Source: Bacteroidota bacterium (GTDB taxonomy: Bacteria; Bacteroidota; Bacteroidia; Chitinophagales; Chitinophagaceae). Taken from it: a stretch of DNA of 33,096 nt. Made by a program: the position numbers and the translations under genes. The stretch is from assembly GCA_013288285.1 (NCBI GenBank), contig JABDCE010000030.1, forward strand, positions 1 to 33,096, given 5' to 3'. A model generated the notes under the pieces. It saw only the letters and a program-made list of their open reading frames with translations. It did no database searches and was not told the origin of the DNA. This document shows, piece by piece, positions 4,987-28,588 of the stretch (positions within the stretch are counted from its first letter, which is position 1; each line of letters begins with the position of its first letter).

Positions 4987-7900
4987 TTACTGCTCTACAA
5001 CAATATGAAACACATTGTTTGCAACATCAGAGTGAAGGCTGAGGATATACATGCCGTTTGCAAGCGTATTGCTCAGTTTTATGCGTTCGTTGATATTGCC
5101 GCTATGCGCCATTACTTTATTGGTGTATACTACCTGGCCAAGCATATTGGTGATTTCCAGTATTGCTTCTTCATCCATGTCTGTACCTAATGTACCTTTT
5201 ACTACAAACTCACCCCTATTCGGGTTAGGTAATACGGTTACATCGGCTGCACCAGTATTAACCTGTTTCGTAGATAGGTTGGTGAGCAGAGCTTTAGTGT
5301 AACCTACAGCACCACCACCACCACATGCACCTAACCTCGTTACCACACAACTTGCGCTATCGCCATTGAATACATTGCGGTCAATATACAGGGATGAGGT
5401 AGCGCCATCAAGCGGGTTACCATCCAAGTACCACTGGTAAGCGTACGGAGTGTTCGGGTCATTGTTAATCTTCGCGAAGAAGGTATCTACCTGTCCTACG
5501 CCCACCACAGGGCCGATCTTGGATGAAACAGTCACCACCGGCATGATCAGCGAATCGACACGCATGATAACAGGAATACTGAAGAAAGTGTCGATAGTAC
5601 GGCACTGGTAGTTGCTTATAAGCCTGAATGTGATGACATCGCCGTTATTAGCAGTGGTAGGAATGTATGTATAAGTAGTCCCCTTCCCAACAGGCACACT
5701 GTTGTTCAGCCAGGTATACACAGGAGCCATACCACCAATAGAAGGTGTAGCTGTAAAGGTTACCGGTATGCCATGGCAAACATAATTGCCAGGGTCTGTA
5801 ACCACAGTAGCACCAGGTGTTTCGAATGGCAGCACGGTCATTCTTACAGAGCCCGATGCTCCGGGTGTAGTAGCGCAGGTAGCACTTCCGGTCATCGTTG
5901 CGGTTACAAGGTCATTATTTGCAGGCAGGTAGCTGAATGTGCTGCCATATGCTGTGGTCAATCCGCCAACGCTCCATGAGAATGTAGGGGTAAGGCCGCC
6001 ATTAACCGGAGTAACGGTAAAGGTGGCTATAGCCCCCGTGCATATGTTGTTTGTTGCGGTTATAGTTACAGCCGGGGTTACTGTAGGGTCGACAGTTACA
6101 AAAACGCTATCCATCATATTGTTCGTGCACGATGTGGTGGTGCTGGCCGCTATCACTGAGTACAAGCCCGGGAGTGTCTGTGGCCCGAAGTTCAGCGCAA
6201 TTCCCGTACCACCAAACGGTGTACCTACAGAAATACCGTTATTGTATAGCTGATAATTTACGTCTGTTTCAGTTCCGGCAAGTGATACGTTTACGCCTGT
6301 ACTACCGAAACAATAGTGGCCACCGCCCATAACAGATTGTACAACCGGTAAAGAGTTAACATTAATGGTTCCGCTGCCGGCCATATTATCTGCGCATGAA
6401 GTGGTGATGTTTGCTGCAGTTACAGTGTAGGTCCCCTTAGCGCCAAATGCGCCGAAGTCCATCGCAACCCCTGTACCTGTGATTGGTGTGCCAATTGCGG
6501 TTGAGCCATTATATAGCTGGTAGCCAACACCTGATTCTGAACCGCTCAGGTTGATGTGTATACCTGCCGCTCCCGCACAGATAGTGCCACTACCAGTAAC
6601 GGTATATACATTTGGTACGGGAGTTGCCGTAGCAGTAGCACTACCGGTCATTATTTTTGTACAGCCTGATCCCATATCTGTGGCAAGTACGGTATATATA
6701 CCGCTGGTTTGGAAACCAAGATCAAGCGGCGCATTCATACCAGTTACACCTGAACCAATCGCCACACTGCCTTTGTACAACTGGTAACTGATGCCAGCGT
6801 CAGCATTCGAAAGTGTAATATCCGCACCTATACCGCCTGCGCAGTAGCTGCCGCCACCTTTTACTGTATCAACAGCGGGCAACGGATTAACGATCACTGC
6901 TACGCTATTAGACATATCAGCTATACATCCGGTGATCACATTGGTTGCCGCAACAGTGTAAGTGCCTGCAACTGTTTGCAAACCGTAGTTAAGCGATTTG
7001 CCGGCAACGCCAGGTAATGTGGCTATTGTTTTGGTGCCATTTGAAAGTGTATAGTTTATTCCCGCAGTAGAAGTATTTAAGCCTACCGGAACGCCTGTAC
7101 TTCCGGCACAGATCGCTCCGCCGCCAGTTACTGTATTTGCTGTTGGCAATGGGTTAATAGTGATAACAACACTTCCTTTCATTGTATTTGTGCAACCGCT
7201 TACGGAATCCGTAGCCTGCACTGTGTATATACCCAGCGGGGTCAGTGATCCAAAGCTTATTGCAGAACCGGTAGTTCCTTTAGCTGTACCACCGCTTACC
7301 GGGTTAGGCCCATTATACAACTGGTAGCTGATTCTGTTATCTGAACCACTGAGCCCTACAGGTACACCTGTACCGCCAGAACAGTAGCTGCCGCCACCGG
7401 TAGTTGTGTAGGCCACCGGAACCGGATTCATCACTACTACTGCGCTGTCTGTCATATTGCTCGAGCAATGGGTGGTGTTATTGGTTCCTATAATTGTATA
7501 CGTACCGGTAGTAGTAAACGCGCCATAATCAAGGGCCGCTGTATTGCCTGCTTTCGGCGTGCCCACAGTGGTCGTGTGTGCTTTATATAACTGGTAGCTT
7601 ACGCCGATGTCAGAGAAACCAAGGCCAATATGAACACCTGTACTGCCTGCGCAGAAGTTGCCTCCGTTTGTTTCGGTAACTGCATAAGTAACAGGCAATG
7701 AATTAATAGTTATTGTTGGGTTGCCATTCATATTTGCAGTACATGTGGTGGTGGTATTGGTAGCTACCACTGAATAAGCTCCTGTAGCAGTATCCAAACC
7801 AAAATCAAGCGAAGTGCCTGTTCCTATCTTTGTGCCTACAATTGTACTTGAATTTATAAGGTCGTACCTGATACCCAATTGTGAGCCACTGAGTAAAAGA

Positions 7901-10900
7901 TGAAGGCCTGCACCACCTGCACAATAAGCCCCTCCGCCAGATACGGTAAGGTTGTATACAGTGAGTGCCGGGTAAGTAGCTACAACAGCGTTGCCTGTGA
8001 GTGTATCTGCACAGCGTGTGGTATTGTCTGTTGCAACGATAATATATGTTCCGTTGCTTGTTACATATCCGAAGTCCAGGGCAATTCCTGTTGAACCATG
8101 TAACGGCAGACCCACGGGAACGGTACCTTCAAATAACTGGTAGTTGATTCCATTATCCGAATTACCGGTCTTGATGTGTACGCCTGAGGTACCGCTACAG
8201 AAACTGCTGCTGCCAATGACATTGAGCGGATAAGGAACAGGCAATGGTTCTTTATTCACGATAGCATTACCAGTCATAGTATCGCTGCAACCGCTTACTG
8301 AATTTACACCTACTACTATATAGGTATCGGCAGTATCTGTTCCGAAGTCGAGAGGCGAATTAGCGCCGGGCAATGTTTTTATGAATCCGGCGCTGCTCCA
8401 CAACTGGTAGTCAATACTTGTATTTGCGTAATCGAGACCTACGCGTACACCCTGAGTGCCTGCGCAATAGTTGCCAGAGTTTGTTACGGTTACGTTATGC
8501 AGCCCGGGAAGCGGATTGATCCCCACAGTTACACTGCCGGTCATCCAGTTTGGGCAGAATGTGCCGGGAGCATTTGCGAGTACTGTATAGGTGCCAGTTA
8601 CGCTTTGCGGGCCAAAATCAATTGGTGAGCCGGTTCCGACGGTTAGCGGGCCCGGAACACCATCAATGTACAATGTATATGCATATCCCGACTGGGAGCC
8701 ACTAAGCACAAGGTCTGTACCTGCTGTGCCGGCGCAGAAATTACTGCTGCTGCCTGTGAAGCTTAGGTTATAAATTATTGGTAATGCATCTACTACAATA
8801 TTAGGGCTGCCGGGCATGTTGTTTGCGCAACCGGTAGCAGTGTTTGTACCTACAACGGTATAGCTACCAGCAGCGGTTTGCGATCCGAAATCGAGTACAC
8901 TATTTGTACCTCCGAATGGGGTGCCGTCTATGACGCTATTAATATACAGTTGATAGCTGACTGCCGATTCTGAATTCACAAGCTGAATGTCAATGCCTGT
9001 GCCTCCAGAGCAATAGTCGGCGACACCACCGGGTATCACGAGATTAAATGGAATAGGTAGTGGGTTGACCGAAACTGTTTGTGTGACATTACATCCGGTA
9101 GCCGGCAGTGCATAAGTGATCGTAGCAGTACCAGGCGTTACAGCAGAAACAAGCCCGGAACCCGACACTGTAGCCACAGTAGTCGTATTGCTCGACCAGG
9201 CACCGAATAGCGTAGCGTCATTAAGTGTGGTAGTGGCTCCGAAACATATACCTGTAGGCCCTGTTATTGTGGCAGGAACCGGATTCACAGTTACAGTTGT
9301 TGTGCTGGAGCATCCTGTTGTTGGTAAAGTATATGTCATTACCGGGTTGCCTGGTATTAAACCGGTAACCACACCGCCTCCGATGGGGCCGGGTGTAATA
9401 GATGCGAGGCCCGGGGAACTGCTTGCCCACGTGCCGCCTCCGCTTATAAACAAAGGACTGCTGCTGCCGACGCATACACTGGTATTGCCACTCACTGCTG
9501 CAGGAGCGGGGTTAACAGTTATAGTTGTAATGGTAAGACAACCGGTATGCAATGTATAAGATATAGTGGGCGTGCTGAATCCTGAAACGCCTGTCACTAT
9601 ACCTGTGCCGGAACCAATAGAAGCAAACGAACTGTTGCTGCTGCTCCATGTGCCACCGAAAGAAAAATCAGTTAAGTATATCGTAGCATTGCCACACACC
9701 GTGTTCGGTCCGCCTATTGGCTCCGGTAATGGATTAATGGTGTAGGGCAGAGTGGCGTAACATCCTGTTGGTAATGTATAGCTGATGGTTGTAGTGCCGG
9801 CTGTAAGCCCAGTTACATCTCCGGAATAGGAAACAATGGTAGCTATTAGCGGGTTGGAAGAACTCCAGGAACCGGTACCTGTTCCATCAACCAAAGTTAC
9901 TATCGGATTGATCGGATTTGTAATGCATGAACCTAACGCTGGTGCTGTAATAGGTACAGGGAGTGTATTTACCGTAATAGCTGTGGTCAATAAACATCCT
10001 GTAGGCAGTGTGTAAGTAATTGTGGGTGACGAAGTACCTGATACACCACTTACAGATGCTGTGGTTGACGTCACTTTGTTGACTGTGGCCTGGGTGGTAT
10101 TGCTGCTGCTCCATGTGCCGCCTGTTGAGGTTTCTCCCAGGGTGATCGAGGAGGTCTGGCATACAGAGGTCGGCCCGGTGAATGCTGCCGGCAATGGATG
10201 TACTGTGAAAGGAGTAGTAATTACACAACTATTGGGCTGTGTATATATGATATTGGGAAAGCCAGCCGAAACACCAGTAGCTACTCCGGTAGAAGGATCG
10301 ATTGTTGCCAAAGCAGTATTGCTGGTCGTCCATGTGCCGCCCGTATATGATTCTGCAAGCGGTGTGGTCAGGCCAACGCACGCTACAGCAGTTCCGGTGA
10401 TAACATCTGTACCAAGCACCGTAACGTTTTGCGTCACATAGCAACTTGTGCCTATCTGGTAGGTAAGGGTAGTTGCGCCGGGATTAATGCCAGTTGCTAT
10501 ACCTGAACCTGGATCAATGCTGGCTATTGTATTGTCATTGCTGCTCCAGGCGCCGCCGCCAGATGAAGTATAGGTTGTGGTCTGATTCTGACAAATTGTT
10601 GCAGAACCCGAAATGTAAGTAGGTGCATCGGCTACCGAAAAACTGAATGTAGAGAATACGGTACCACAGGCAAGTGCATTTGTATAAGTAATAGTTGTTG
10701 CACCTGCAGCAACGCCTGTAACGTCACCCGTCACCGGATCTATGGATGCGATAGTGTTATCATCGCTGGTCCATGTGCCGCCAGGTACATCGGCGGTCAG
10801 AGTTGTTGTATATCCTGTACATACAGCACTGCTGCCCGATATATTTCCCGCAGTGCAGTTTTCTGTAATGGTAACAGAGCCGTCGCTGCCGTTATATCCC

Positions 10901-11634
10901 TGGTAATGAGAAACATTACTTGCCAATACTGCATCAGTATAAGAAGAACCGCCGCCGCCGCCGCCATAATATCCGCCGCCGCCGCCATAGTATCCACCAC
11001 CGCCACCGCCGCCATATCCGCTGCCATCGCCTCCAGTTCCCTGGTATCCTCCACTGCCACCATAGTAGCCGCCGGAGCCCCCGGAATATTGATTGCCGCC
11101 GTAACCGGTAAACCCGCCGTTGTAATAAGAATAACACATGGCCCCGCTTTGGCCGTTAAGGTCGCCGCCATTGCCGCCCCAGTCACCACCGCCGCAGTCA
11201 TAGCCTGCGCCGCCGCCGCCACCAGCTACTACCAGGCGATCATTGACTGTGTAGGGCGATTGCATGATGTCTGATGCACCGCCGCCGCCGCCGCCAAAAC
11301 GGTAGGTACAGTTTCCCCCGCCGTTAAAGCCGCCGCTACCTGCGCTATAATAACCACCATCTCCACCTGCAGCTCCTACATTCACATATAGTACCTGGGT
11401 AGGCGTCACAGACAACGTGCACACCACACGGCCTCCATAACCACCGGCACTGTAGTTATTACCACCTCTGCCGGCACTCATGTCTACTGTTATTGATGTT
11501 ACACCCGACGGAACCGTGTACGTATAAGTCCCTGGCGATGTGAAATACGTTTGGGCGTTACCTGCTCCGCTGCATCCCAGCAGTATGAGCACAAGGATAG
11601 CAAGTTTTGTTGAGTGGAGTTGTTTCATAAACAT
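4987..11634 (-). CDS. Giant modular T9SS-secreted surface protein (glycine-rich domain plus Ig-like repeats)
   Basis: A 2215-residue cell-surface protein, probably an adhesin or matrix protein. Order: signal peptide (1-28; starts at 11634 and 11628 both possible); glycine-rich domain (about 30-262) with GGGGGGASDI and DRLVVAGGGGGAGY, patterns typical of glycine-rich domains including that of ALK/LTK; eight units of about 75 residues with GGTWTSSN and VTGVxxGxxTITYT, resembling bacterial Ig-like (BIg2) folds; eleven units of about 90 residues with YCxGxxGVxxxL, YQLYxG and GTYTVxAT; three PKD/Ig-like units; and a T9SS type A sorting domain (about 2125-2215; PNPNRGEF, LEITNMLGQVVY, NGMYILSL). 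Each repeat has about two cysteines, suggesting disulfides. It has its own terminator and faces a 620-bp AT-rich gap. The ligand is unknown. Export route is confident, adhesion inferred. Confidence 0.9.
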   Translation of the reverse strand: MFMKQLHSTKLAILVLILLGCSGAGNAQTYFTSPGTYTYTVPSGVTSITVDMSAGRGGNNYSAGGYGGRVVCTLSVTPTQVLYVNVGAAGGDGGYYSAGSGGFNGGGNCTYRFGGGGGGASDIMQSPYTVNDRLVVAGGGGGAGYDCGGGDWGGNGGDLNGQSGAMCYSYYNGGFTGYGGNQYSGGSGGYYGGSGGYQGTGGDGSGYGGGGGGGYYGGGGGYYGGGGGGSSYTDAVLASNVSHYQGYNGSDGSVTITENCTAGNISGSSAVCTGYTTTLTADVPGGTWTSDDNTIASIDPVTGDVTGVAAGATTITYTNALACGTVFSTFSFSVADAPTYISGSATICQNQTTTYTSSGGGAWSSNDNTIASIDPGSGIATGINPGATTLTYQIGTSCYVTQNVTVLGTDVITGTAVACVGLTTPLAESYTGGTWTTSNTALATIDPSTGVATGVSAGFPNIIYTQPNSCVITTPFTVHPLPAAFTGPTSVCQTSSITLGETSTGGTWSSSNTTQATVNKVTSTTASVSGVSGTSSPTITYTLPTGCLLTTAITVNTLPVPITAPALGSCITNPINPIVTLVDGTGTGSWSSSNPLIATIVSYSGDVTGLTAGTTTISYTLPTGCYATLPYTINPLPEPIGGPNTVCGNATIYLTDFSFGGTWSSSNSSFASIGSGTGIVTGVSGFSTPTISYTLHTGCLTITTITVNPAPAAVSGNTSVCVGSSSPLFISGGGTWASSSPGLASITPGPIGGGVVTGLIPGNPVMTYTLPTTGCSSTTTVTVNPVPATITGPTGICFGATTTLNDATLFGAWSSNTTTVATVSGSGLVSAVTPGTATITYALPATGCNVTQTVSVNPLPIPFNLVIPGGVADYCSGGTGIDIQLVNSESAVSYQLYINSVIDGTPFGGTNSVLDFGSQTAAGSYTVVGTNTATGCANNMPGSPNIVVDALPIIYNLSFTGSSSNFCAGTAGTDLVLSGSQSGYAYTLYIDGVPGPLTVGTGSPIDFGPQSVTGTYTVLANAPGTFCPNWMTGSVTVGINPLPGLHNVTVTNSGNYCAGTQGVRVGLDYANTSIDYQLWSSAGFIKTLPGANSPLDFGTDTADTYIVVGVNSVSGCSDTMTGNAIVNKEPLPVPYPLNVIGSSSFCSGTSGVHIKTGNSDNGINYQLFEGTVPVGLPLHGSTGIALDFGYVTSNGTYIIVATDNTTRCADTLTGNAVVATYPALTVYNLTVSGGGAYCAGGAGLHLLLSGSQLGIRYDLINSSTIVGTKIGTGTSLDFGLDTATGAYSVVATNTTTTCTANMNGNPTITINSLPVTYAVTETNGGNFCAGSTGVHIGLGFSDIGVSYQLYKAHTTTVGTPKAGNTAALDYGAFTTTGTYTIIGTNNTTHCSSNMTDSAVVVMNPVPVAYTTTGGGSYCSGGTGVPVGLSGSDNRISYQLYNGPNPVSGGTAKGTTGSAISFGSLTPLGIYTVQATDSVSGCTNTMKGSVVITINPLPTANTVTGGGAICAGSTGVPVGLNTSTAGINYTLSNGTKTIATLPGVAGKSLNYGLQTVAGTYTVAATNVITGCIADMSNSVAVIVNPLPAVDTVKGGGSYCAGGIGADITLSNADAGISYQLYKGSVAIGSGVTGMNAPLDLGFQTSGIYTVLATDMGSGCTKIMTGSATATATPVPNVYTVTGSGTICAGAAGIHINLSGSESGVGYQLYNGSTAIGTPITGTGVAMDFGAFGAKGTYTVTAANITTSCADNMAGSGTINVNSLPVVQSVMGGGHYCFGSTGVNVSLAGTETDVNYQLYNNGISVGTPFGGTGIALNFGPQTLPGLYSVIAASTTTSCTNNMMDSVFVTVDPTVTPAVTITATNNICTGAIATFTVTPVNGGLTPTFSWSVGGLTTAYGSTFSYLPANNDLVTATMTGSATCATTPGASGSVRMTVLPFETPGATVVTDPGNYVCHGIPVTFTATPSIGGMAPVYTWLNNSVPVGKGTTYTYIPTTANNGDVITFRLISNYQCRTIDTFFSIPVIMRVDSLIMPVVTVSSKIGPVVGVGQVDTFFAKINNDPNTPYAYQWYLDGNPLDGATSSLYIDRNVFNGDSASCVVTRLGACGGGGAVGYTKALLTNLSTKQVNTGAADVTVLPNPNRGEFVVKGTLGTDMDEEAILEITNMLGQVVYTNKVMAHSGNINERIKLSNTLANGMYILSLHSDVANNVFHIVVEQ
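5290..6077 (-). repeat. Three type-C PKD/Ig-like coding repeats
   Basis: Three units of about 85-90 residues with a xxPxYxWxxNxxxVGxGxTYxY core, ending just before the sorting domain. They resemble the PKD or Ig-like 'stalk' modules commonly found next to T9SS signals. The third unit, with YQWYLDGNPLDGA, is the most diverged. Confidence 0.7.
6078..9054 (-). repeat. Eleven type-B coding repeats (about 90 aa each)
   Basis: Eleven tandem units averaging 270 bp. The core consensus is GGGxYCxGxxGVxVxLxxS, then xxxYQLYxG, then xxLDFGxQTxxGTYTVxAT and xxxGCxxxMxGS, ending in xxINPLP. Units are clearly homologous but diverged at the DNA level, so this is an old expansion rather than a recent one. 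I do not recognise the family name with confidence; cysteine spacing suggests one disulfide per unit. Confidence 0.82.
9055..10850 (-). repeat. Eight type-A Ig-like coding repeats (about 75 aa each)
   Basis: Eight diverged tandem units can be aligned by eye. Each starts near xxxGxxxVCxG, passes GGTWxSSN, then SIDPxTGxVTGV, then TITYTLPTGC, and ends in a proline linker such as VNPLPxP. The pattern fits bacterial Ig-like (BIg2-like) domains. Unit boundaries are approximate (to within about 10 residues). Confidence 0.8.
10930..11340 (-). repeat. Glycine-codon tract (GGC/GGT runs) in the giant gene
   Basis: Coding-strand runs of GGC and GGT triplets, up to five or six in a row, separated by Tyr, Ser and Asn codons, encode GGGGGG and GGYYGG-type blocks. 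GC content is far above the flanking DNA. The coding strand is strongly G-rich, the template strand C-rich. Confidence 0.85.
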
Positions 11635-12255
11635 GAATTAAAGAGGTGTTGAAATGTATTTTCGATAGTGTCTGTAAAGTAGTGCTGCTGATATTGCTCT
11701 TCCAACCTGGAAGCAAAAAATAGTGACAGTTTTAATTAATTTGTAAATGCTTTGTTAACAAAAATAAAATATTTCATCAAAATTACCTAATTAACAAATG
11801 ATTTACTTCAAAAAATCGCTGCTAAATTGTTAATTTTTTATCAATACATAGATATAAATAAAACAATAAATATGATATTTGTTACATTTTGATAATTAAA
11901 GCTTTAATCTATTTTTTTTGAGTGGTCAGCCGTTCATATTTTCCTTGTGCTGGTATCCTTTTATCAGACTGAGTTGCATTAAAGCTAATTTGTGCAAAGA
12001 AACGAGTAGCCCTCTTATAGAGACGTAGAAAAAGTGCGAAAAGTTTGTACATTAAATATATTTTTAATTTGCATTAACCAACAGTTATTTTTTTGGACTT
12101 TTTTCACAATAAATACACATATATTAATTACTGTAAAATCATGCCGCTGAGGAAATAAGCCGATATACTTGAAGGAAAATGTTATATCTGCGTGAGGCCT
12201 GTCGAAAAACCAATTGAACTTTTACGCCTACATTTACTCCGAAATCGGACACACA
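11635..12255. other. AT-rich intergenic region between divergent surface-protein and arylsulfotransferase-like genes
   Basis: About 620 bp with no convincing gene on either strand. It is much more AT-rich than its flanks, with long A and T runs. It holds a possible promoter for the giant gene (11778-11811), a perfect 12-bp palindrome TTTGTTAACAAA (11751-11762) and two more TTGTTAA/TTAACAA copies (11791-11797 and 11827-11833), roughly 36-39 bp apart. In DNA this AT-rich such short matches can arise by chance. No perfect promoter for the plus-strand gene was found; TATACTTG at 12164-12171 is a one-mismatch -7 element. Confidence 0.6.
11778..11811 (-). promoter_or_regulatory. Candidate Bacteroidota promoter for the giant surface-protein gene
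   Basis: On the minus strand, TTG (11811-11809) and a perfect TAATTTTG -7 element (11785-11778) are 23 bp apart, at the upper end of the usual TTG-N17-23-TAnnTTTG spacing. It would give a leader of roughly 140 bases containing the TTTGTTAACAAA palindrome. The region is AT-rich, so a chance match is possible. Confidence 0.35.
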
Positions 12256-13848
12256 ATGCATAGGGTACTAAGTATATTTTTTTGCCTATTTGCTGTTCAT
12301 GGACAACTGAGGGCGCAGACATTCCCAAAGGAGGGTGCTAAGGTGCATTACAGGATCATTGGGTTTTCTTTTGAAAAGGTGAAGCAGGTAAGTGAATATA
12401 AATTAGAAATTGCAAAAGGCTACTACAATTCGGACGACTCATTCAGGAAGAATATAATTATTTCTGTAACTTCTGCTGAAAATAGAAAAGTGGTTGAGGC
12501 ACCTGACTTTGGCAGCCAATATACCTGGCAGGTTTCCTATGTGACTAAAGGTAATACGCCTACACAGCGAATAAAACATCATTTTAGTATCGGCACAGTG
12601 CCGGAGGCAGACACCAACATAGTCCGTTTCAGGGTCATTGACAAGGCAGTTAAATATAAGGACGCATACGTCTTCCTCGATGGGAATAATGGCTTGTATG
12701 ACATGGCCGGCCATCTTGTATGGTATATGCCGCAAATAGATACCAAAGCAAATACTCATGCACAGGTAAATGACCTGAAGATGACGCCACAGGGCACGAT
12801 CACATTTATGGAGAACAACCGGGCTTACGAAATAAATTATAACGGTGACATATTATGGAGATCTCCGGTTAAGATAGGCCGCGAAGATTCAATAGAACAT
12901 TATCATCACGAATTTACGAGGCTCAGTAACGGGCACTACATGGTGCTGAGTTCTGAATCGGTACTGTGGAAGCCAGACTTACCGCCTGAAAAAGACAGTA
13001 GTCTGTATAAGGCAACGGGGGGCAGAATGAAAAATGATACTAACAAAACGAAAACACACTTTGGTACTGTAATTGAGTATGATGAAAAAGGTAACATGGT
13101 CTGGTCGTGGAAGTCATCGTCTTATTTTATGCAGTCTGATGTTAAGTACTTCAATCCTAAATTGAGAAGGCAGATAATTGACGTGCATGAGAATTCATTT
13201 TTCTTCGACGAGAAGAACGGGTATATATACGTAAGCTTCAAAAACATCTCGCGTATAGTAAAAGTGAAATACCCCGAGGGGAACGTCGTCGCTGCTTACG
13301 GCGAAGTATACAAGCCCGATGTGCCGCAGACCGGAAATGGGTTGTTTTGCAGCCAGCATAGTTGTAAGATATCGGATGACGGATACCTGTACCTGTTTAA
13401 TAACAACAACTGTGATAGCGATGGTATAATGCCTACAGTAGTGATGATGCGCGAACCGGGAGCCTCGAATGGTGCCCTGGAAAAGGTATGGGAATATACC
13501 TGTACGGATGACGGCATTTCGGAGAATCCGCTTTTCGACCGCAAGGCCCAGGAGGAGAAGGTAAGAGCAAAGCATCCCAACTTCAAGAGCATGAATATGC
13601 GTATGATGCATCCTACATCCGGCGGCAGCGTTACTGAGTTACCAGACCATTCATTTTTTGTTTCCATGAACAATGAGTATAGTAAAGTATTTATAGTAGA
13701 CCGGGATAAAAAAGTATTGTGGAGCGGTGTATCTGAGAAATGGAATGCAGGAGAGAACAGGTGGATCATCATACTTCAGTATCGGGCAAGCCTGGTGAAC
13801 AGCCGTAAGCTGCTGGAAAGTATGATATGGAAAGGCAGGAGTATTTAA
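12256..13848 (+). CDS. Secreted arylsulfotransferase-like protein, copy 1
   Basis: Resembles the ASST family, which moves sulfuryl groups from aryl sulfates to other phenols without PAPS in the periplasm. I start it at the ATG at 12256 because that gives a clean signal peptide (MHRVLSIFFCLFAVHGQLRAQ); a TTG at 12214 adds 14 unlikely residues. Residues about 22-120 look like a fibronectin-III-like domain, followed by a beta-propeller with blades such as GLYDMAGHLVWYMP and AYEINYNGDILW. Candidate catalytic histidines are His218 (HYHHEF), His311 (DVHENS) and His368 (FCSQHSC); His368 matches the transiently sulfated His of E. coli ASST. The position where I expect the catalytic Arg appears to be Lys (SFKNIS). 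A paralogue lies 27 bp downstream, so the two are probably co-transcribed. No sorting domain; periplasm inferred. Confidence 0.8.
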   Translation: MHRVLSIFFCLFAVHGQLRAQTFPKEGAKVHYRIIGFSFEKVKQVSEYKLEIAKGYYNSDDSFRKNIIISVTSAENRKVVEAPDFGSQYTWQVSYVTKGNTPTQRIKHHFSIGTVPEADTNIVRFRVIDKAVKYKDAYVFLDGNNGLYDMAGHLVWYMPQIDTKANTHAQVNDLKMTPQGTITFMENNRAYEINYNGDILWRSPVKIGREDSIEHYHHEFTRLSNGHYMVLSSESVLWKPDLPPEKDSSLYKATGGRMKNDTNKTKTHFGTVIEYDEKGNMVWSWKSSSYFMQSDVKYFNPKLRRQIIDVHENSFFFDEKNGYIYVSFKNISRIVKVKYPEGNVVAAYGEVYKPDVPQTGNGLFCSQHSCKISDDGYLYLFNNNNCDSDGIMPTVVMMREPGASNGALEKVWEYTCTDDGISENPLFDRKAQEEKVRAKHPNFKSMNMRMMHPTSGGSVTELPDHSFFVSMNNEYSKVFIVDRDKKVLWSGVSEKWNAGENRWIIILQYRASLVNSRKLLESMIWKGRSI

Positions 13849-13875: not shown

Positions 13876-15480
13876 ATGTCTGGAAAATTCGGTGCGTTCT
13901 TTGTTTGTTTTTTAATTCCGTTGAGGCTCTTCTCGCAGATGCAACCCGCCGAAGGGGCTAAACTACATTACCGGATGATCACTTTTTCTGTACCCCGAAG
14001 TCCTAAAGCTGATAAGTATAAAGTGGAAGTAGCCGCCGGTAACTACAACGCAGAGGCACTGTTCGACAAGAATATTGTGGTATCAGCAAGTGGTAACACG
14101 GGCACTATTATTGTCACTGTACCATCATTCGGTAAAGAATATACATGGCAGATGGTATATACGGGCAAGTCGAAAACAACGAAGAGTGGCCTGTATCATT
14201 TTACTACCGGATCTGTGCCCGAGACCGATACAACCCTCGTTCGGCTTAGGTTAATTAATCCTGCTACTGAGAAGTATCGCGATGACTATGTTTTTATAGA
14301 TGGTAACCGGGCACTGTATGACATGAATGGGAATGTTGTGTGGTACTTGCCGGATATGAATGGACTCGCAAATCCTAAAGCCATTATACGCGATATGAAG
14401 ATTACTTCCGTTGGCACCATTACATTTATGAGCGATGATAAAGCCTATGAGATAAACTACAATGGCGAAGTACTATGGAAAGCGCCTAATACAGGGGTAG
14501 TAAACGGCGAGAACAATGAGCATTATCATCACGAATTTCAGAGGCTAGCCAACGGCCATTATATGATCATGGGTATGGAGAGTGTGCCGTGGAAGAGCAA
14601 GGTGCCGGTTACCGTTGATGCAAATTTACCACCCGCCATGCAGAGCAGGATGCTGCAAGATACCGGAACTCATAAAACGACTTTCGGCACCATTATAGAA
14701 TATGACAACAGCGGAAAAGTAGTATGGTCGTGGAAGTCGTCAAAGTATTTTATTGGCTCTGACCTCGAATATTACAATCCGGCGTTCAGAATGCCTACCA
14801 CGGATGTGCACGAGAACTCATTTTATTTCGATGAAAAGAATAACATGATCTATGTCAACTTCAAAGGTATAGCACGGATCGTGAAAGTGAAATACCCTGA
14901 AGGGAATGTTGTGCGGGCCTATGGAGAAGTATATAAGCCCGGCAGTAAGGAGCAGGGGAATGGCCTGTTTTGCGATGAGCATAGCTGCCGCCTTTCCAGC
15001 GAAGGGTACATATACCTGTACAACAACAACGCCTGTACAGGAGAGCAGGCTATACCTACTGTAGAGATGCTGCAGGAGCCACAGTCGGACACCGGAACTT
15101 TGAAGAAAGTATGGGAGTATGTTTGTAACACAGCGGGTGTAAATGCAAACCCAAATAACAAGGTTATGGAGCAAAACCAGAAAATGGCTGTGCAGCGCAA
15201 CAGGGATCTGCACTTGCAGAATGCGTTCAAAATGCACCCTACATCCGGCGGCCATGTGCTGGAAATGCCGGATCACTCGATGTTTATTTGTATGAATACG
15301 GAGTATTGCAAATTATTTATCGTAGACCGGGATAAAAAGATACAGTGGAGCGCGGTGCCTGAAAAATACAACCAGAACACAAAGGAATGGCGTATAAGCG
15401 CACAGCAATACCGGGCAAGTATCATATCGGCACAAGACCTGGAAAGCCTCGTCAGGAAAGGGGTAAAAGCAGGTAGCTGA
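13876..15480 (+). CDS. Secreted arylsulfotransferase-like protein, copy 2
   Basis: A 534-residue tandem paralogue of the preceding gene, aligned along its whole length, for example AYEINYNGEVLW, EHYHHEFQRLANGHYM, DVHENSFYFDEK, RIVKVKYPEGNVV and DRDKKIQWS. The signal peptide is about residues 1-21. The same architecture follows: an FN3-like N-terminal domain and an ASST-type propeller. Candidate catalytic residues are His219, His312 and His369, the last again between two cysteines (FCDEHSC), and again a Lys sits at the expected Arg position (NFKGIA). The copies differ clearly at both DNA and protein level, so the duplication is old and both appear intact. It converges on the ACMSD gene with 10 bp between stops. 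Substrate unknown; a non-catalytic or different-transfer role cannot be excluded. Confidence 0.8.
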   Translation: MSGKFGAFFVCFLIPLRLFSQMQPAEGAKLHYRMITFSVPRSPKADKYKVEVAAGNYNAEALFDKNIVVSASGNTGTIIVTVPSFGKEYTWQMVYTGKSKTTKSGLYHFTTGSVPETDTTLVRLRLINPATEKYRDDYVFIDGNRALYDMNGNVVWYLPDMNGLANPKAIIRDMKITSVGTITFMSDDKAYEINYNGEVLWKAPNTGVVNGENNEHYHHEFQRLANGHYMIMGMESVPWKSKVPVTVDANLPPAMQSRMLQDTGTHKTTFGTIIEYDNSGKVVWSWKSSKYFIGSDLEYYNPAFRMPTTDVHENSFYFDEKNNMIYVNFKGIARIVKVKYPEGNVVRAYGEVYKPGSKEQGNGLFCDEHSCRLSSEGYIYLYNNNACTGEQAIPTVEMLQEPQSDTGTLKKVWEYVCNTAGVNANPNNKVMEQNQKMAVQRNRDLHLQNAFKMHPTSGGHVLEMPDHSMFICMNTEYCKLFIVDRDKKIQWSAVPEKYNQNTKEWRISAQQYRASIISAQDLESLVRKGVKAGS

Positions 15481-19090: not shown

Positions 19091-19165
19091 TTCCTCTCAT
19101 GAATTTGTTGTACTTATTCATTCGCAGGCATACTTTTTTTATCAGCTTTGCTAAAATACATCCTT

Positions 19166-19948
19166 ATGCACGCTATATGGACAGGGGCGATAGGTTTTGG
19201 GCTGGTAAACATACCGGTGAGGTTATTTAGCGCCACCCAGGAAAGTTCGCTGGACCTTGATATGCTGGACAAAAACGGGCATGCCAATATTAAGTATGTT
19301 CGTATTAACGCTAATACCGGTAAGGAAGTGCCCTGGGCCAATATCGTAAAAGGGTACAAATATCATGATGATTATGTTGTGCTTACAGACGATGATTTTG
19401 AAAAGGTAAGCCCACGGAAGAGTAAGATGATAGACATCAGCGAATTTGTGAAGGCAGAGGAAATTGATAGCACTTTTTACGACACACCATATTACCTCGC
19501 GCCCACAAAGGGGGGTGAGAAAGCCTATGTGCTGTTGCGCGAAGCGTTGAAACAAAGCGGCAAGATAGCTATCGGTGTATTTGTATTGAGGAATAAGGAA
19601 AACCTTTGTTTATTAAGACCCCAGGACGATGTAATACTATTGCAGAAAATGAGATTCGCAGAAGAGATCCGCACATATGATGATCTTGATATTCCTAAGA
19701 GCATAACCGTGAAACCGGCAGAATTGAAGATGGCGCAGTCGCTTATCAACCAATTGACGCCGAAGAAATTTTCCCTGGCAAAGTATAAGGATACCTACGA
19801 TGACGAACTGATGAAAATAATTACTGCAAGAGCTAAGGGTAAGAAGGTGACCGCACCCAAATTCAAGATCATACACAACAAGAGCAAAGACCTGATGGAA
19901 CAACTGAAGGCAAGCCTTGAAACCCGGCCAAAGAAAAAAGCATCCTGA
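19166..19948 (+). CDS. ku: Ku, DNA end-binding protein of bacterial NHEJ
   Basis: A homodimeric ring protein that loads on DNA double-strand ends and recruits LigD. The start MHAIWTGAIGFGLVNIPVRL is the hallmark of bacterial Ku and supports the ATG at 19166; a TTG at 19148 adds six unlikely residues. The Ku core follows (VRINANTGKEVPW, YHDDYVVLTDDDF, FYDTPYYLAPTKGG, AIGVFVLRNKENL, LRPQDDVILL). The protein is 260 residues and ends in a basic Lys-rich tail (RPKKKAS), as in other bacterial Ku proteins that bind DNA through the tail. Its TGA stop overlaps the ATG of ligD (TGATG), so the two are one operon and probably translationally coupled. Confidence 0.95.
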   Translation: MHAIWTGAIGFGLVNIPVRLFSATQESSLDLDMLDKNGHANIKYVRINANTGKEVPWANIVKGYKYHDDYVVLTDDDFEKVSPRKSKMIDISEFVKAEEIDSTFYDTPYYLAPTKGGEKAYVLLREALKQSGKIAIGVFVLRNKENLCLLRPQDDVILLQKMRFAEEIRTYDDLDIPKSITVKPAELKMAQSLINQLTPKKFSLAKYKDTYDDELMKIITARAKGKKVTAPKFKIIHNKSKDLMEQLKASLETRPKKKAS

Positions 19949-20541
19949 TGAGCCTCGAAAAATATAACAGTAAAAGAAATTTTAGCGATACCCCTGAGCC
20001 GTCCGGTAAAAAGGCAATAGACAAAGGCAAACTAACGTTTGTGGTGCAGCGGCATCACGCCAGCCATTTGCATTACGACTTCAGGCTGGAGTTGGGTGGG
20101 GCGCTCAAAAGCTGGGCTGTGCCTAAGGGCCCTTCGCTGAATCCCAAAGATAAGCGGCTGGCAATGATGGTAGAAGACCATCCCATCAGCTATGCGGGCT
20201 TTGAAGGAGACATACCGGCAGGGAATTATGGGGCGGGACATGTAGATGTATGGGATCATGGAACTTATGAACCCATAGATGAAGATGGAGGTGTGATCAC
20301 CGCTAAACAATTTTCGCAGCACCTTCACGCAGGCAGTATTAAGTTCCGGATGCACGGCAAACATCTGAAAGGTGACTTCGCACTGGTAAACATGAAAAAG
20401 GATGAAAAGACCTGGCTCCTGATAAAGCACCACGATAAGTATGCCACAGAAGAACCCTATAACAGCGAAGACTATGCCAAAAAGAGTTCGCTGGCATATA
20501 CTGCCGGACGCAATAAAGACAAAGTGGTAAAAAAAAAGTAA
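19948..20541 (+). CDS. ligD: LigD N-terminal part: 3'-phosphoesterase (PE) domain, split from the ligase by a -1 shift
   Basis: The 3'-end healing module of LigD, which trims 3'-phosphates and ribonucleotides at breaks. PE motifs are FVVQRHHASHLHYDFRLEL (31-49, metal-binding His and Asp), WAVPKGPS (56-63), EDHPISYAGFEG (76-87), GxYGAGxVxVWDxG-like GNYGAGHVDVWDHG (92-105) and the later FALVNM. The frame ends KKK-stop in a nine-A run (20529-20537). In the -1 frame the coding sequence continues without a stop from 20517 through a linker into the ligase domain, as in the one-piece PE-LIG-POL LigD of Pseudomonas aeruginosa. So this is either a stand-alone PE protein, one product of frameshifting or slippage, or half of a gene broken by a one-base error or mutation. 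Confidence 0.9.
   Translation: MSLEKYNSKRNFSDTPEPSGKKAIDKGKLTFVVQRHHASHLHYDFRLELGGALKSWAVPKGPSLNPKDKRLAMMVEDHPISYAGFEGDIPAGNYGAGHVDVWDHGTYEPIDEDGGVITAKQFSQHLHAGSIKFRMHGKHLKGDFALVNMKKDEKTWLLIKHHDKYATEEPYNSEDYAKKSSLAYTAGRNKDKVVKKK
20529..20541 (+). other. A9 run and -1 slippery heptamer at the ligD frame break
   Basis: Nine A (20529-20537) then G. In the PE frame the codons are GTA AAA AAA AAG TAA, so the heptamer A AAA AAG (20532-20538) is in exactly the phase of the dnaX-type -1 slippery site and is followed at once by a stop. The -1 frame is open from 20517 to 22487. One extra A would also join the frames. A weak CTC-AAAA-GAG hairpin lies downstream; no strong stimulatory stem or upstream Shine-Dalgarno was seen. 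Confidence 0.7.
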
Positions 20542-20648
20542 AGCCGATACTGCTCAAAAGAGAGCCGCTTCCTGAACCCGAGTCACGTTCGTATAAGAAC
20601 ACTTATCACGGCAGCAGCAATCCCAAATTTACGCATTACATAAAGCCT

Positions 20649-22487
20649 ATGCTGGCGAAGCTGCACGACACACCCTTCAATGATCCCAGTTGGATATACG
20701 AGATCAAGTGGGATGGCTATCGTGCTATAGCCGAGGTGGGTAAAAAAGAGACAAGACTATACTCAAGAAACGGTTTATCATTCGGTGAAGATTACCCGCT
20801 GGTGTATGACGAGTTGAAGAAAATAAAAAAACAAGTAGTGCTTGATGGTGAGATCGTAGCCCTTGATGAGAACGGTAAGCCTTCTTTTCAACTGATACAA
20901 CAGTACGCGCAGGGTGGGGAAGTGCCTATCGTATACTATGTATTCGATTGTCTCTCTATCAAGGGTAAGTCAATAGAAGACAAACCCTTGTCGGAAAGGA
21001 AGAAAATGCTGAAGGCTTTGTTACCGGCAAGCGACGTGATCAAATACTGTGATCATATTGAGGAGCAGGGTAAGGAGTTCTTTGCAGCGGTAAAGAAACA
21101 AGGCCTTGAGGGCATGATAGCCAAGCGCGCAGATAGTGTGTATACCGAGGGTTCGCGCTCGGGCGATTGGCTGAAGGTAAAGAACATAATGACCGAAGAA
21201 GCGGTTATCGCGGGTTACACAGCACCTGCGGGTAGCAGAAAATATTTCGGTGCATTGGTGCTCGGGCAGTATAACAAAGGCAAGTTGGTTTATATAGGCC
21301 ATACCGGTACTGGCTTTACAAATGCTATCCTCAAAGATGTGTACAGACAACTACAGCCGCTGAAAGTCACAGATTCGCCCTTTGACGCAAAAGTGCCGGT
21401 GAATGGTGCAGTAACATGGGTGAAGCCGCAATTGGTTTGTAACCTTAAATTTACAGAGATAACACAGGAAGGCCACAGACGTCATCCCGTGTTCATGGGG
21501 CTGCGTATTGATAAGCCTGCAGCCGAAGTACATGAAGAGGTACGCGACACAGATACTAAAACAGAAACCACCGAAAAAATGGAACCTGATAAAACCATCA
21601 ATGGAAAAAAGCTGGCCTTTACACATCTTGATAAGATATTCTGGCCTGACGAAGGATACACCAAGGGTGATGTCATTGACTACTACAATGCCATGTACCC
21701 GCACATTATCAAATACATGAAAGACCGCCCGGAATCGTTGATGCGCACACCCAATGGTATTAATGATAAAGGCTTTTTTCACAAAGATGCCGGGCTTGCA
21801 GGCCCCGCATGGTTGAAGTCAGTACCCTTGTATTCAGAAAGCGCCAATAAGGACATTAACTATATCATCTGCAATGACAAACAAACACTGCTCTATCTCG
21901 CCAACCTCGGTTGTATAGAGATGAACCCCTGGAACTCCCGTCTCAAAAACTTAGACAAGCCTGACTACCTGGTAATGGATATCGACCCCTCGGAAAAAAA
22001 TACTTTTGAACAGGTCGTTGATACTGCGCTGGTGATAAAGGAAATACTGGACAGGGCTGGTGCAGCATCATTCCCCAAGACCTCGGGAGCCACGGGTATA
22101 CATGTTTATGTTCCGTTGGGCGGTAAGTATACATATGATCAGGCAAAGGAATTTGCTCACGCTATCGCCGTGCTTGCCCAGGAGCAACTACCTGATTTTA
22201 CCAGTCTCGAACGTTCGCTGAGCAAACGCGGCAAAAGCAATATCTATATTGATTTCCTTCAAAACAGGAAAGGCCAGACCCTGGCTTGTGCCTATAGCCT
22301 GCGGCCAAAGCCGGGCGCTACGGTAAGTACGCCATTGGAATGGAAAGAAGTAAAAAGCGGCCTGCACCCTACAGATTTCAACATCAAAAACATAATGAAA
22401 CGCCTCGACAAAAAAGGTGACCTCTTTAGCGGCGTATTGCTGAAAGGCATAGATATGATGAAGTGCCTCAAAAAATTGGACGCGTAA
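20649..22487 (+). CDS. ligD: LigD C-terminal part: ATP-dependent DNA ligase plus primase-polymerase domain
   Basis: Seals and fills DNA ends delivered by Ku. Numbering from the ATG at 20649: the ligase nucleotidyl lysine is Lys20 in EIKWDGYRA, followed by YSRNG, the VLDGEIVALDE segment, YYVFDCLSIKGK, EGMIAKRADSVY and DWLKVK, then an OB domain. From about residue 315 the archaeo-eukaryotic primase-like polymerase domain starts (FTHLDKIFWPDEGYTKGD). Its metal-binding Asp residues are Asp444 and Asp446 (VMDIDPSE) and Asp535 (YIDFLQNRKGQT). The frame is open upstream to 20517, adding a linker of about 40 residues after the slippery site. The start at 20649 keeps the ligase core, so independent expression is possible. 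The full joined protein would be about 845 residues, near the usual LigD length. Confidence 0.93.
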   Translation: MLAKLHDTPFNDPSWIYEIKWDGYRAIAEVGKKETRLYSRNGLSFGEDYPLVYDELKKIKKQVVLDGEIVALDENGKPSFQLIQQYAQGGEVPIVYYVFDCLSIKGKSIEDKPLSERKKMLKALLPASDVIKYCDHIEEQGKEFFAAVKKQGLEGMIAKRADSVYTEGSRSGDWLKVKNIMTEEAVIAGYTAPAGSRKYFGALVLGQYNKGKLVYIGHTGTGFTNAILKDVYRQLQPLKVTDSPFDAKVPVNGAVTWVKPQLVCNLKFTEITQEGHRRHPVFMGLRIDKPAAEVHEEVRDTDTKTETTEKMEPDKTINGKKLAFTHLDKIFWPDEGYTKGDVIDYYNAMYPHIIKYMKDRPESLMRTPNGINDKGFFHKDAGLAGPAWLKSVPLYSESANKDINYIICNDKQTLLYLANLGCIEMNPWNSRLKNLDKPDYLVMDIDPSEKNTFEQVVDTALVIKEILDRAGAASFPKTSGATGIHVYVPLGGKYTYDQAKEFAHAIAVLAQEQLPDFTSLERSLSKRGKSNIYIDFLQNRKGQTLACAYSLRPKPGATVSTPLEWKEVKSGLHPTDFNIKNIMKRLDKKGDLFSGVLLKGIDMMKCLKKLDA

Positions 22488-26203: not shown

Positions 26204-28588
26204 TTACTGCTCTATAACAATATGGAATACTTTATGCGCAGTTGCCGATCGAAGGTTGAGCAGGTACATGCCGTTGGCCAGCCCTGAGGTAGCCACCTGT
26301 TCGCTCACGTTCCCATTCCTGGTCACAAATCCATCTTTATATACAGTCTCTCCCAGCATATTAGTAATTTCTAGTGTCGCGGGTTCATCCATATTGGTTC
26401 CCAGGAAGCCAGTGATCAAAAATGCCCCCTTGCTCGGGTTAGGCGTCACATTGATATTTGCAACTGATGATGCAATTTGTTTTACACCCACATTATTCAG
26501 CAGCCTGAAGAAGTTGAACGTAGTCAGGTAGCACGCGCCATAATGGGTCACAACGCAGGTGATGGAGTCATTGCCATCATAGTTGAACTGGTTGCTGATA
26601 AAAGAATCCGTTGTGGCGCCGGCTATCACGGAGTCGTTGAGTATCCACTGATAGCTGAACGGCCCGGTAGTATTGGTAACAATGGCCGACAAAGTGTCCA
26701 GTTGGCCCGGCGATGTAAGTATAGGTGACGATGCCGTTATGACAAAGAACGGGATCACCGGTGTGTCCACAACAGCTGCTAACGAGCCGGATACCGTGTC
26801 TGCCAGCCGGCAGAAGAAGTCACTGACGAGATAGCATGTAAAAACATCTTTGTCTGAAGGCTTGTAATGAAGTACCGGGCCTGCGCCTACTACTGTACCG
26901 TTTCTCGTATAATAATAAGAAGGAGAAGTGCCGCCATAAACCGGTGTTGGTGTAAGGGTAAATGCACTGCCCATACATACTACCGATGGGGTAGCAGTTA
27001 GGCTCACTGTCGGTACCGCGCGGTCTACCACGGTCATTACCAGTGTATCTCTCGCTGAGTCAGGGAAGCCACACAAGGTATCGCTGGCCATGGTCACTAT
27101 GATGGAATCGTTATTGCCGGGTATGTACACATATGCCGACGTGTCAATGACCAGCAGCGAACCATTGATCATCCATTGGTAATGTGGCGCCACACCCGAG
27201 TTTACGGGCACCGCCGTGAAAATTTCTGTCGTACCACCGCAAACTGTATCTCCCGCACTGGCGCTGATGCCTACAGCAGTAAGTACGGAAGGTATGACTG
27301 TTACTGTTGCGCTGCCCGACATTATATTACTGCACCCGGTAAATGGGTCAGTAGCCGTAGCAGTATAGGCACCTCCCAACATCTGCAACCCGAAGTCTAG
27401 CGTAGTGCCGGTACCAAAGAAAGGTCCCACCACACTCGTGCCTATATGTAAATAATAGTTAGTCCCAAAATCCGATGGCAGCATATATATATGTACTCCC
27501 GAATCAGCGGCGCAATAGCTACCTCCGCCAAATACTGAATAAACAGAGGGAAGTGCGTTCACTAATATGCCCTGTACAGCCGCACAGCCCGTGCTCGGAT
27601 AGGTATACGAGATATTTGCAGCGCCTACCGTCAGTCCTGACATGATACCTGTCACCGGGTCAATGGTAGCGTTGGTTGTATTGTCGCTGGTCCATACGCC
27701 GCCGGTGCTGCCGTCTGACAAAGTTGCAGTGCCACCTATACACACCATCGGAAAACCTATTATTGGGTTTGGGTTCGGGTTGATGGTCTCGGTCACAAAA
27801 GATATGCAGCCTGTAGTATAGGTGTAGGTAATAGTTGCCGTTCCTGCCGATACGCCGGTCACGTCTCCGCTTCCCGCTACTACGGTTGCCATGCCCGGGC
27901 TGCCGCTGGTCCATGTGCCACCGGGTACTGCATCAGAAAATGTAGTGGTAAGGCCGGGGCAAATAACAAAATTTCCGGCAATCGGCGATGTGGGGTTAAC
28001 GGTAACGTTTTTTGTACTGCTGCAGCTACCTACCGTATAACTAAACGCAACCAAACCGCCGGATACGCCGGATACCAGCCCCGATGTAGTAATAGTAGCT
28101 ACAGACGTATTGCTGCTGGTCCATGTGCCGCCGGATATAGGATCACTCAGCGGAATGATATGCCCCTGGCAAACACTGGTGGCACCGGCTATGGTTGGTG
28201 GAAGCGCTGTAATGGTTACATATATTTTCACCACGGAGAAAGGAATTCCGTTGTCGCTGCCTTGTATCGTAAAAGAATCAGGGCCTGAATAACCGATATG
28301 AGGCGTATAAATAAGACCGGATGGAGTGGTAGGCGTTCCTGTAGATACTGCGGCGGCAGTGAAACCTCCTAATGTACCGTTAGGAGGGGTGGCACTCACC
28401 GACCATCCTATTACGTCGCCTGAAGGTGCATTAAAGGTTAGTAAGCTATTGATACTCGTTGCCCCTGAATTTGCGCAAACAGTCAGGGATTGCGGGCTGC
28501 CGCCGGTAAAACCGGTTTGTGCATACCCGCTCAAAGAAACAAACAACGCAAAAACAAAGCAGAGTATAAGATATGGGTTCCTTTTCAT
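26204..28588 (-). CDS. T9SS-secreted modular surface protein, smaller relative of the giant protein
   Basis: 794 residues. Signal peptide 1-23 (ending SGYAQ), then a domain of about 105 residues (SLTVCANSGATSINSLL ... SGPDSFTIQGSDNG) recalling cadherin-like/VCBS-type modules. Three type-A Ig-like units follow (GGTWTSSNTSVATI, GDVTGVSAGTATITYT, GGVWTSDNTTNATI), one type-B unit (GGGSYCAADSGVHIYML), three type-C PKD/Ig-like units, and a T9SS type A sorting domain (about 705-794; VTPNPSKGAF, LEITNMLGETVY, NGMYLLNLRS, ending FHIVIEQ). The module families and sorting domain are those of the 2215-residue protein 15 kb away, in different numbers and with a different N-terminal head. Probable surface adhesin or matrix component; ligand unknown. 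Confidence 0.87.
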   Translation of the reverse strand: MKRNPYLILCFVFALFVSLSGYAQTGFTGGSPQSLTVCANSGATSINSLLTFNAPSGDVIGWSVSATPPNGTLGGFTAAAVSTGTPTTPSGLIYTPHIGYSGPDSFTIQGSDNGIPFSVVKIYVTITALPPTIAGATSVCQGHIIPLSDPISGGTWTSSNTSVATITTSGLVSGVSGGLVAFSYTVGSCSSTKNVTVNPTSPIAGNFVICPGLTTTFSDAVPGGTWTSGSPGMATVVAGSGDVTGVSAGTATITYTYTTGCISFVTETINPNPNPIIGFPMVCIGGTATLSDGSTGGVWTSDNTTNATIDPVTGIMSGLTVGAANISYTYPSTGCAAVQGILVNALPSVYSVFGGGSYCAADSGVHIYMLPSDFGTNYYLHIGTSVVGPFFGTGTTLDFGLQMLGGAYTATATDPFTGCSNIMSGSATVTVIPSVLTAVGISASAGDTVCGGTTEIFTAVPVNSGVAPHYQWMINGSLLVIDTSAYVYIPGNNDSIIVTMASDTLCGFPDSARDTLVMTVVDRAVPTVSLTATPSVVCMGSAFTLTPTPVYGGTSPSYYYTRNGTVVGAGPVLHYKPSDKDVFTCYLVSDFFCRLADTVSGSLAAVVDTPVIPFFVITASSPILTSPGQLDTLSAIVTNTTGPFSYQWILNDSVIAGATTDSFISNQFNYDGNDSITCVVTHYGACYLTTFNFFRLLNNVGVKQIASSVANINVTPNPSKGAFLITGFLGTNMDEPATLEITNMLGETVYKDGFVTRNGNVSEQVATSGLANGMYLLNLRSATAHKVFHIVIEQ

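Follow-up and report, generated by a model that had tools for sequence, protein, structure and literature searches.

Is a ligD gene whose phosphoesterase (PE) part lies in a different reading frame from its ligase and polymerase (LIG–POL) parts still one gene, and how could its frames be joined? The question is raised by a 33,096-nucleotide (nt) stretch of Bacteroidota DNA, hereafter the window, which is contig 30 (JABDCE010000030.1) of a 2.57 Mb metagenome-assembled genome (MAG) that is 57.67% complete (GCA_013288285.1). The domain models of PE, LIG and POL all score above their curated cut-offs in the window and those of LIG and POL are complete, but they are spread over two frames. A conventional LigD working with Ku has the same domains in the order PE–LIG–POL and is likewise encoded beside ku; here PE is in another frame. 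Judged from the sequence and its relatives, the two ligD frames are evidently joined in expression, so that both free PE and PE–LIG–POL would be produced. The gene is probably a single one carrying a slippage site, at which slippage of RNA polymerase joins PE to LIG–POL.

The PE frame ends with GTA AAA AAA AAG TAA, the run of nine A (A9) being followed by a G at position 20538. The reading of frames and domains confirmed what a preliminary description of the window had pointed out, namely that the −1 frame is open from position 20517 through the linker into the ligase and that an A_AAA_AAG heptamer at 20532–20538 lies in the phase of −1 frameshifting. In the −1 frame, the linker at 20538–20648 is devoid of the codons ATG, GTG and TTG; the earliest of these is the ATG at 20649, which borders on the ligase domain and lies 107 nt past the PE stop codon. 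We propose that in this lineage ligD has a slippage site built into the linker between PE and LIG. Transcripts with the nine A of the gene would give free PE of 197 amino acids (aa). RNA polymerase would, in part of the transcripts, slip on the run and add one A, and normal translation would then continue through the linker, LIG and POL to give the full PE–LIG–POL protein.

The same arrangement is conserved within the genus. The PE gene was present in 14 of 35 genomes, the window's included, and in 11 of these 14 the junction has a run of exactly nine A at the same position, LIG being in the −1 frame. Thus, 10 of the 13 other gene-bearing genomes keep both the run and its phase, which speaks against the private mutation that the preliminary description had allowed for. 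Directly past the run, the −1 frame starts with VKPxLLK in seven of the eleven members. The post-run linker is free of ATG, GTG and TTG in the −1 frame in seven of the eleven members as well; the linker there is best explained as being translated by ribosomes arriving from upstream. The occurrence of the PE gene itself is patchy (9 of 25 among the genomes with completeness of 90% or more and contamination of 5% or less).

For the comparison outside the genus, one genome per species was scanned (84,980 species), and the best 80 of the 302 relatives found were taken. Further searches covered 395 class-level genomes, 149 genomes of the Mucilaginibacter lappiensis genus and 244 family-level genomes, adding 80 more stretches. 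The 181 stretches (the window, L032–L131 and L168–L247; L numbers denote loci and G numbers genomes) gave 143 loci after removal of identical PE sequences. It should be noted that these loci are not a random sample: besides the choice of the best 80 of 302, some sets mainly targeted short PE frames, and one set (plus G494) was picked as fused comparators. The 143 loci comprised 62 fused genes, 56 splits with LIG in the −1 frame, seven other splits and 18 loci without LIG, meaning no LIG start within 1,500 nt. A run of at least nine A was present at the junction or in the linker of 52 of the 56 −1 splits, 19 of the 62 fused genes and none of the seven other splits. Where LIG is missing, the run is missing too: none of the 18 LIG-less loci had it in the PE tail. 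Fisher tests, which treat these related loci as independent, gave p values of 1e-12 for the −1 splits against the fused genes, 6e-7 against the other splits and 1e-13 against the LIG-less loci. The junction runs sit in the overlap of the two frames, starting 2 nt before it in L172 and L197.

The run-joined split was found in 25 of 112 PE-bearing genomes of the family sample (244 searched) and in 8 of 50 of the class sample (395 searched), figures in which only near-complete short-frame matches were taken (43 and 12), long frames were counted as unsplit at this junction and a few partial matches were left out. Over the family, class and Mucilaginibacter sets it spans 23 genus groups. The junctions of M. 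lappiensis ATCC BAA-1855 (L125), Mucilaginibacter sp. OK268 (L121) and sp. SG564 (L122), whose records are not labelled as MAGs, have A10 elsewhere in the linker.

Some of the loci in this collection are unusual in themselves. Several of the 18 LIG-less loci look decayed: a stop codon interrupts the PE match in L049, L196 and L217, and L101 has a partial LIG further on. In two genomes of the M. lappiensis genus, G210 (L216) and G547 (this same L217), the PE copy has an in-frame stop within the match. The near-identical fused ligD genes L073 and L119, labelled Azovibrio restrictus (Pseudomonadota) and Bacteroides, group with Chitinophagaceae loci, which probably reflects mislabelling or misbinning of the contigs; the same may hold for L111 and L120, labelled Doudnabacteria and cyanobacterium.

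Selection acts on both the run and the sequence that follows it. As a null for the run, synonymous codons were shuffled within each gene while the protein was kept. Linkers with at least nine A numbered 52 among the 56 splits against 21.2 expected, codon composition alone thus giving a run in over a third of them, and 19 among the 62 fused genes against 7.9 expected. In the LIG–POL part, fewer such runs were present than expected (split genes, 5 against 8.7; fused genes, 2 against 10.6). Met and Trp aside, only 6 of the 121 residues invariant within the genus are encoded by a single codon across the eleven members, whereas A9 is kept in all eleven; this per-column count is approximate at the last codons of L040, which are aligned one column off. 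All six invariant valine columns vary in codon. Past the PE stop, the pN/pS ratio (nonsynonymous to synonymous differences) of the linker in nine genus sequences was 0.39 when read in the −1 frame, as opposed to 1.00 for the PE frame and 1.34 for the remaining one; −1-frame stops were absent from all 16 linkers looked at. Past the stop, the linker is constrained as a protein only in the −1 frame. The relatives and the selection in both frames support the view, already put forward in the preliminary description, that one gene gives two products and that slippage at the A run joins the frames. We infer that slipping occurs, and at the level of transcription, as well as its rate and a benefit to the cell from having both products.

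A mirror image of this layout was found among the fused genes. In the 19 fused genes with A9 or A10 in the linker, a −1-frame stop follows 2–27 codons downstream, so that slippage there would yield the short form, PE alone. Ten of the 19 share the context GAA AAA AAA AG and belong to one Mucilaginibacter part of the tree. On the tree of 123 loci, split and fused states interchange at least 15 times, 12 of these changes being forced by well-supported branches; the tree was made by a 'quick' method, has several long branches, and was computed after dropping L181 and L200 and leaving out the 18 LIG-less loci. The linker run might be a general dosage device of Bacteroidota end joining, both layouts giving free PE and PE–LIG–POL in a set ratio by polymerase slippage and being gained, kept or inverted repeatedly across Chitinophagaceae, Mucilaginibacter and other families. 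We hold this wider reading tentatively, at slightly under an even chance. It would parallel Thermus, in which tau and gamma are made by polymerase slippage.

Several observations weigh against the polymerase-slippage reading. Three gene-bearing genomes of the genus depart from the A9 junction: G004 (L034; also L052) has A8 with LIG in the other frame and LIG–POL intact, G008 (L044) lacks the long run and has an in-frame stop, and G013 (L043) has no LIG. The A8 could be an error, a recent mutation or another slippage length. Four of the 56 −1 splits have no run, three of them (L082, L181 and L227) with ATGA overlaps and one (L216) with an ATG 17 nt past the stop codon. In 21 of the 52 run-bearing loci (4 of 11 in the genus), the distance from the PE stop to a start codon is no more than about 25 nt. 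When split state and run were compared on the tree by an independent-pairs test, informative pairs were too few and significance was not reached (median p 0.22). Finally, LIG is in the −1 frame in all 52 run-bearing splits and never in +1, the only near case of the other direction being the A8 of L034.

The single direction bears on programmed −1 ribosomal frameshifting of the dnaX or insertion sequence (IS) type, the alternative that survives best. Here, two tRNA-Lys would slip back by one base on A_AAA_AAG or A_AAA_AAA, and one mRNA would give the same two products. The heptamer is in the exact phase in the window, and an in-phase A_AAA_AAG or A_AAA_AAA is present in all 52 run-bearing junctions. 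According to a passage by the GeneTack authors (PMC3711429), a single direction suggests ribosomal frameshifting, and orthologues shifted in either direction mark transcriptional slippage. In Thermus, slippage on the run adds one or more A in falling proportions, as described in a section of PMC5009743, and insertion-biased slippage would thus give one main direction too.

In favour of the polymerase, the runs at the junctions are A9 at 38 loci and A10 at 14 with none shorter (n = 52), and they occur in all three codon phases. None of the 56 −1 junctions rests on an in-phase heptamer within a run shorter than nine, though 19 of the 62 fused genes and 8 of the 18 LIG-less ones have such a heptamer but lack any longer run. 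A heptamer can do without the initial A of the run, which belongs to the codon upstream, yet this A is present whatever residue that codon encodes (V 29, S 3, L 2, I 1 and A 1 at 36 phase-2 junctions). Downstream RNA structure gave no signal at the 52 loci: in 60-nt windows the mean z was −0.49 against −0.57 in the control, with z < −2 at 4 against 7 loci. An upstream Shine–Dalgarno (SD)-like motif, for which a list from part of PMC4066793 served as reference, was not recognised on visual inspection of the window's sequence ahead of the run. Both tRNA-Lys genes, UUU and CUU, are present in the two genomes checked, namely the window's (G000; L280 and L285) and G719 (L254 and L255), itself the carrier of a run-joined split, unlike the single tRNA-Lys of E. 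coli mentioned in part of the review PMC5009743. The same part suggests that tRNA-Lys(CUU) may have a bearing on why Thermus dnaX uses polymerase slippage and not ribosome slippage. Since the run is never shorter than nine, its codon phase varies, bare-heptamer junctions and a structure signal are absent and tRNA-Lys(CUU) is present, we favour polymerase slippage, which we consider probable, over ribosomal frameshifting, which we consider unlikely. Of the two mechanisms offered in the preliminary description, polymerase slippage is therefore preferred, while the dnaX-like phase that it stressed is probably not what matters most.

A second alternative is that two separate proteins are made, PE and a LIG–POL translated from its own ATG or by restart after the PE stop. 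An ATGA overlap is the usual sign of translational coupling, and the overlapping pairs described above together with L216 demonstrate that coupled forms exist; the splits thus seem to be of two kinds, coupled genes without a run and run-joined genes. At those loci where a start lies near the PE stop, restart could contribute. In the window, however, the first start is far from the stop, and 29 of the 52 run-bearing loci have no start before the beginning of the LIG domain. Neither the −1-frame constraint of the linker upstream of the window's ATG nor the absence of the run from LIG-less PE genes fits two separate proteins, and we regard this explanation as improbable.

More improbable still is phase variation, in which a hypermutable A tract would toggle the full enzyme, or a frameshift merely tolerated or drifting in a lysine-rich linker. 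The repeated interchange of fused and split states on the tree would suit it, as would the tree neighbours L066, a fused gene with A10, and L118, a split one with A9 (support 87), and the share of runs that composition alone predicts (21 of 56). Against it, no genus genome is in the fused, in-frame state (A9 in 11, A8 in one, no run in one and no LIG in one), the synonymous sites of the run are constrained, and the direction is 52 to 0. A sequencing or assembly error or a pseudogene, to which the incompleteness of the MAG and the A8 of G004 might point and which corresponds to the missed A or inactivating deletion of the preliminary description, can be rejected as scarcely credible, being contradicted by relatives with the same run in MAGs of differently named projects, by the selection in both frames, by the complete LIG and POL domains, by the A10 junctions outside the genus in records not labelled as MAGs, and by three other A9 runs of the same MAG (L135, L144 and L147) inside frames open for at least 500 nt on either side.

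The features of the locus in the window are collected in the following table.

Features of the ku–ligD locus in the window
Feature	Position	Strand	Basis
ku gene	19148..19948	+	PF02735, TIGR02772
PE open reading frame, 197 aa, LigD 3'-phosphoesterase domain (LigD_N)	19948..20541	+	PF13298 145 bits, TIGR02777
Frameshift box, overlap of PE frame and −1 frame	20517..20541	+	sequence reading
Nine-A run, proposed slippage site	20529..20537	+	sequence reading
Rival ribosomal site, A_AAA_AAG heptamer in phase for −1 frameshifting	20532..20538	+	sequence reading
TAA stop of the short, PE-only product	20539..20541	+	sequence reading
Linker in −1 frame, begins VKPILLK, protein-level constraint	20538..20648	+	pN/pS comparison
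LIG–POL open frame, 612 aa, first ATG at start of ligase domain	20649..22487	+	TIGR02776 560 bits
ATP-dependent DNA ligase domain (DNA_ligase_A_M)	20676..21182	+	PF01068, residues 10–178 of 612-aa frame
DNA ligase C-terminal domain (DNA_ligase_A_C)	21237..21515	+	PF04679, residues 197–289 of 612-aa frame
LigD primase-polymerase (POL) domain, LigD_Prim-Pol	21660..22427	+	PF21686, residues 338–593 of 612-aa frame

The ku gene adjoins ligD in the window, its TGA sharing one base with the PE start codon (TGATG). Ku is likewise encoded at most 400 nt upstream in 24 of the 27 −1 split loci that have at least 900 nt of upstream sequence. Among 38 other runs of at least nine A in the same MAG, in a table read by eye and with the genes unidentified, no second A9-broken gene of the ligD layout was found. 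Another A9 of this MAG (L162, minus-strand run at 1002) sits 45 nt short of the end of an open frame reaching 855 nt upstream of the run.

In some relatives, LIG and POL are apart as well. They lie in different frames in three genomes of the genus, in L058 at about 6611 (G033), L060 at about 6590 (G027) and L067 at about 5813 (G008), POL apparently having its own ATG. A second A-run site between LIG and POL was considered and rejected, as the LIG/POL junctions of these three genomes contain no A run of at least eight. About 400 nt of other sequence separates LIG from POL in L059 (6605–7010; G015), and in L068 (G006) LIG ends from 3977 on with no POL match on the short contig. Elsewhere in the window, two large secreted-looking repeat proteins encoded on the minus strand (4987–11634 and 26204–28588) have alike C-terminal tails, which we take to be probably a sorting signal, and the adjacent similar genes at 12214–13848 and 13876–15480 (plus strand) look like a tandem duplication.

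In the literature searched, the kind of mechanism is known, while its occurrence in this gene, its breadth and the pair of layouts in end joining appear to be new. No published recoding of ligD was among the matches listed in the searches; the sole 'ligase' in the main text of PMC3711429 is a Mur ligase, and the part of PMC5009743 used here mentions neither LigD nor a DNA ligase. A survey of non-homologous end joining (NHEJ; PMC7719229) states, in the section used here, that all Bacteroidetes with NHEJ have a conventional three-domain LigD. Gene callers are expected to report a ligD of the present type as a lone PE with a truncated ligase or as a pseudogene, and surveys of bacterial end joining may therefore misjudge many Bacteroidota. 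If the proposed reading is true, a DNA-repair enzyme, in a form seen in 23 genus groups of the genomes searched, joins those cellular genes from which slippage yields a pair of products. It also makes testable the question of what use the PE, which cleans 3' ends, has apart from the ligase to which it is usually fused.

Among the known systems, E. coli dnaX has the identical in-phase A_AAA_AAG heptamer. There, as outlined in part of PMC3711429, it is accompanied by an upstream SD-like element and a downstream hairpin; their counterparts were not detected in ligD, neither as a structure signal at the 52 loci nor as an SD-like motif by eye in the window. The poly(A)-tract frameshifts of Blochmannia and Buchnera (PMC3017870, in part) are likewise old and kept in otherwise intact genes. 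Those frameshifts are tied to the AT bias of endosymbionts and affect several genes, whereas here one linker of one gene is concerned in many lineages, and the run is gone without LIG. Further parallels are tssM1 of Citrobacter rodentium and tssM3 of Yersinia pseudotuberculosis (PMC4256274, in part), in which an A run stands just before a premature stop, an added A gives the long form, and two length variants result. Both layouts, the mirror one included, have been shown experimentally for these tssM genes; in ligD they are deduced from comparison. The tssM1 run is A11 in a gene of a secretion system, and the ligD run is in a repair ligase. The dnaX gene of Thermus thermophilus likewise has A9 within the gene and gives a short and a long product from it, according to parts of PMC1088944 and PMC5009743. 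Its long product comes from the unslipped frame, whereas that of the window's ligD would need the slip; the Thermus layout is the one matched by the 19 run-bearing genes among the 62 fused ligD.

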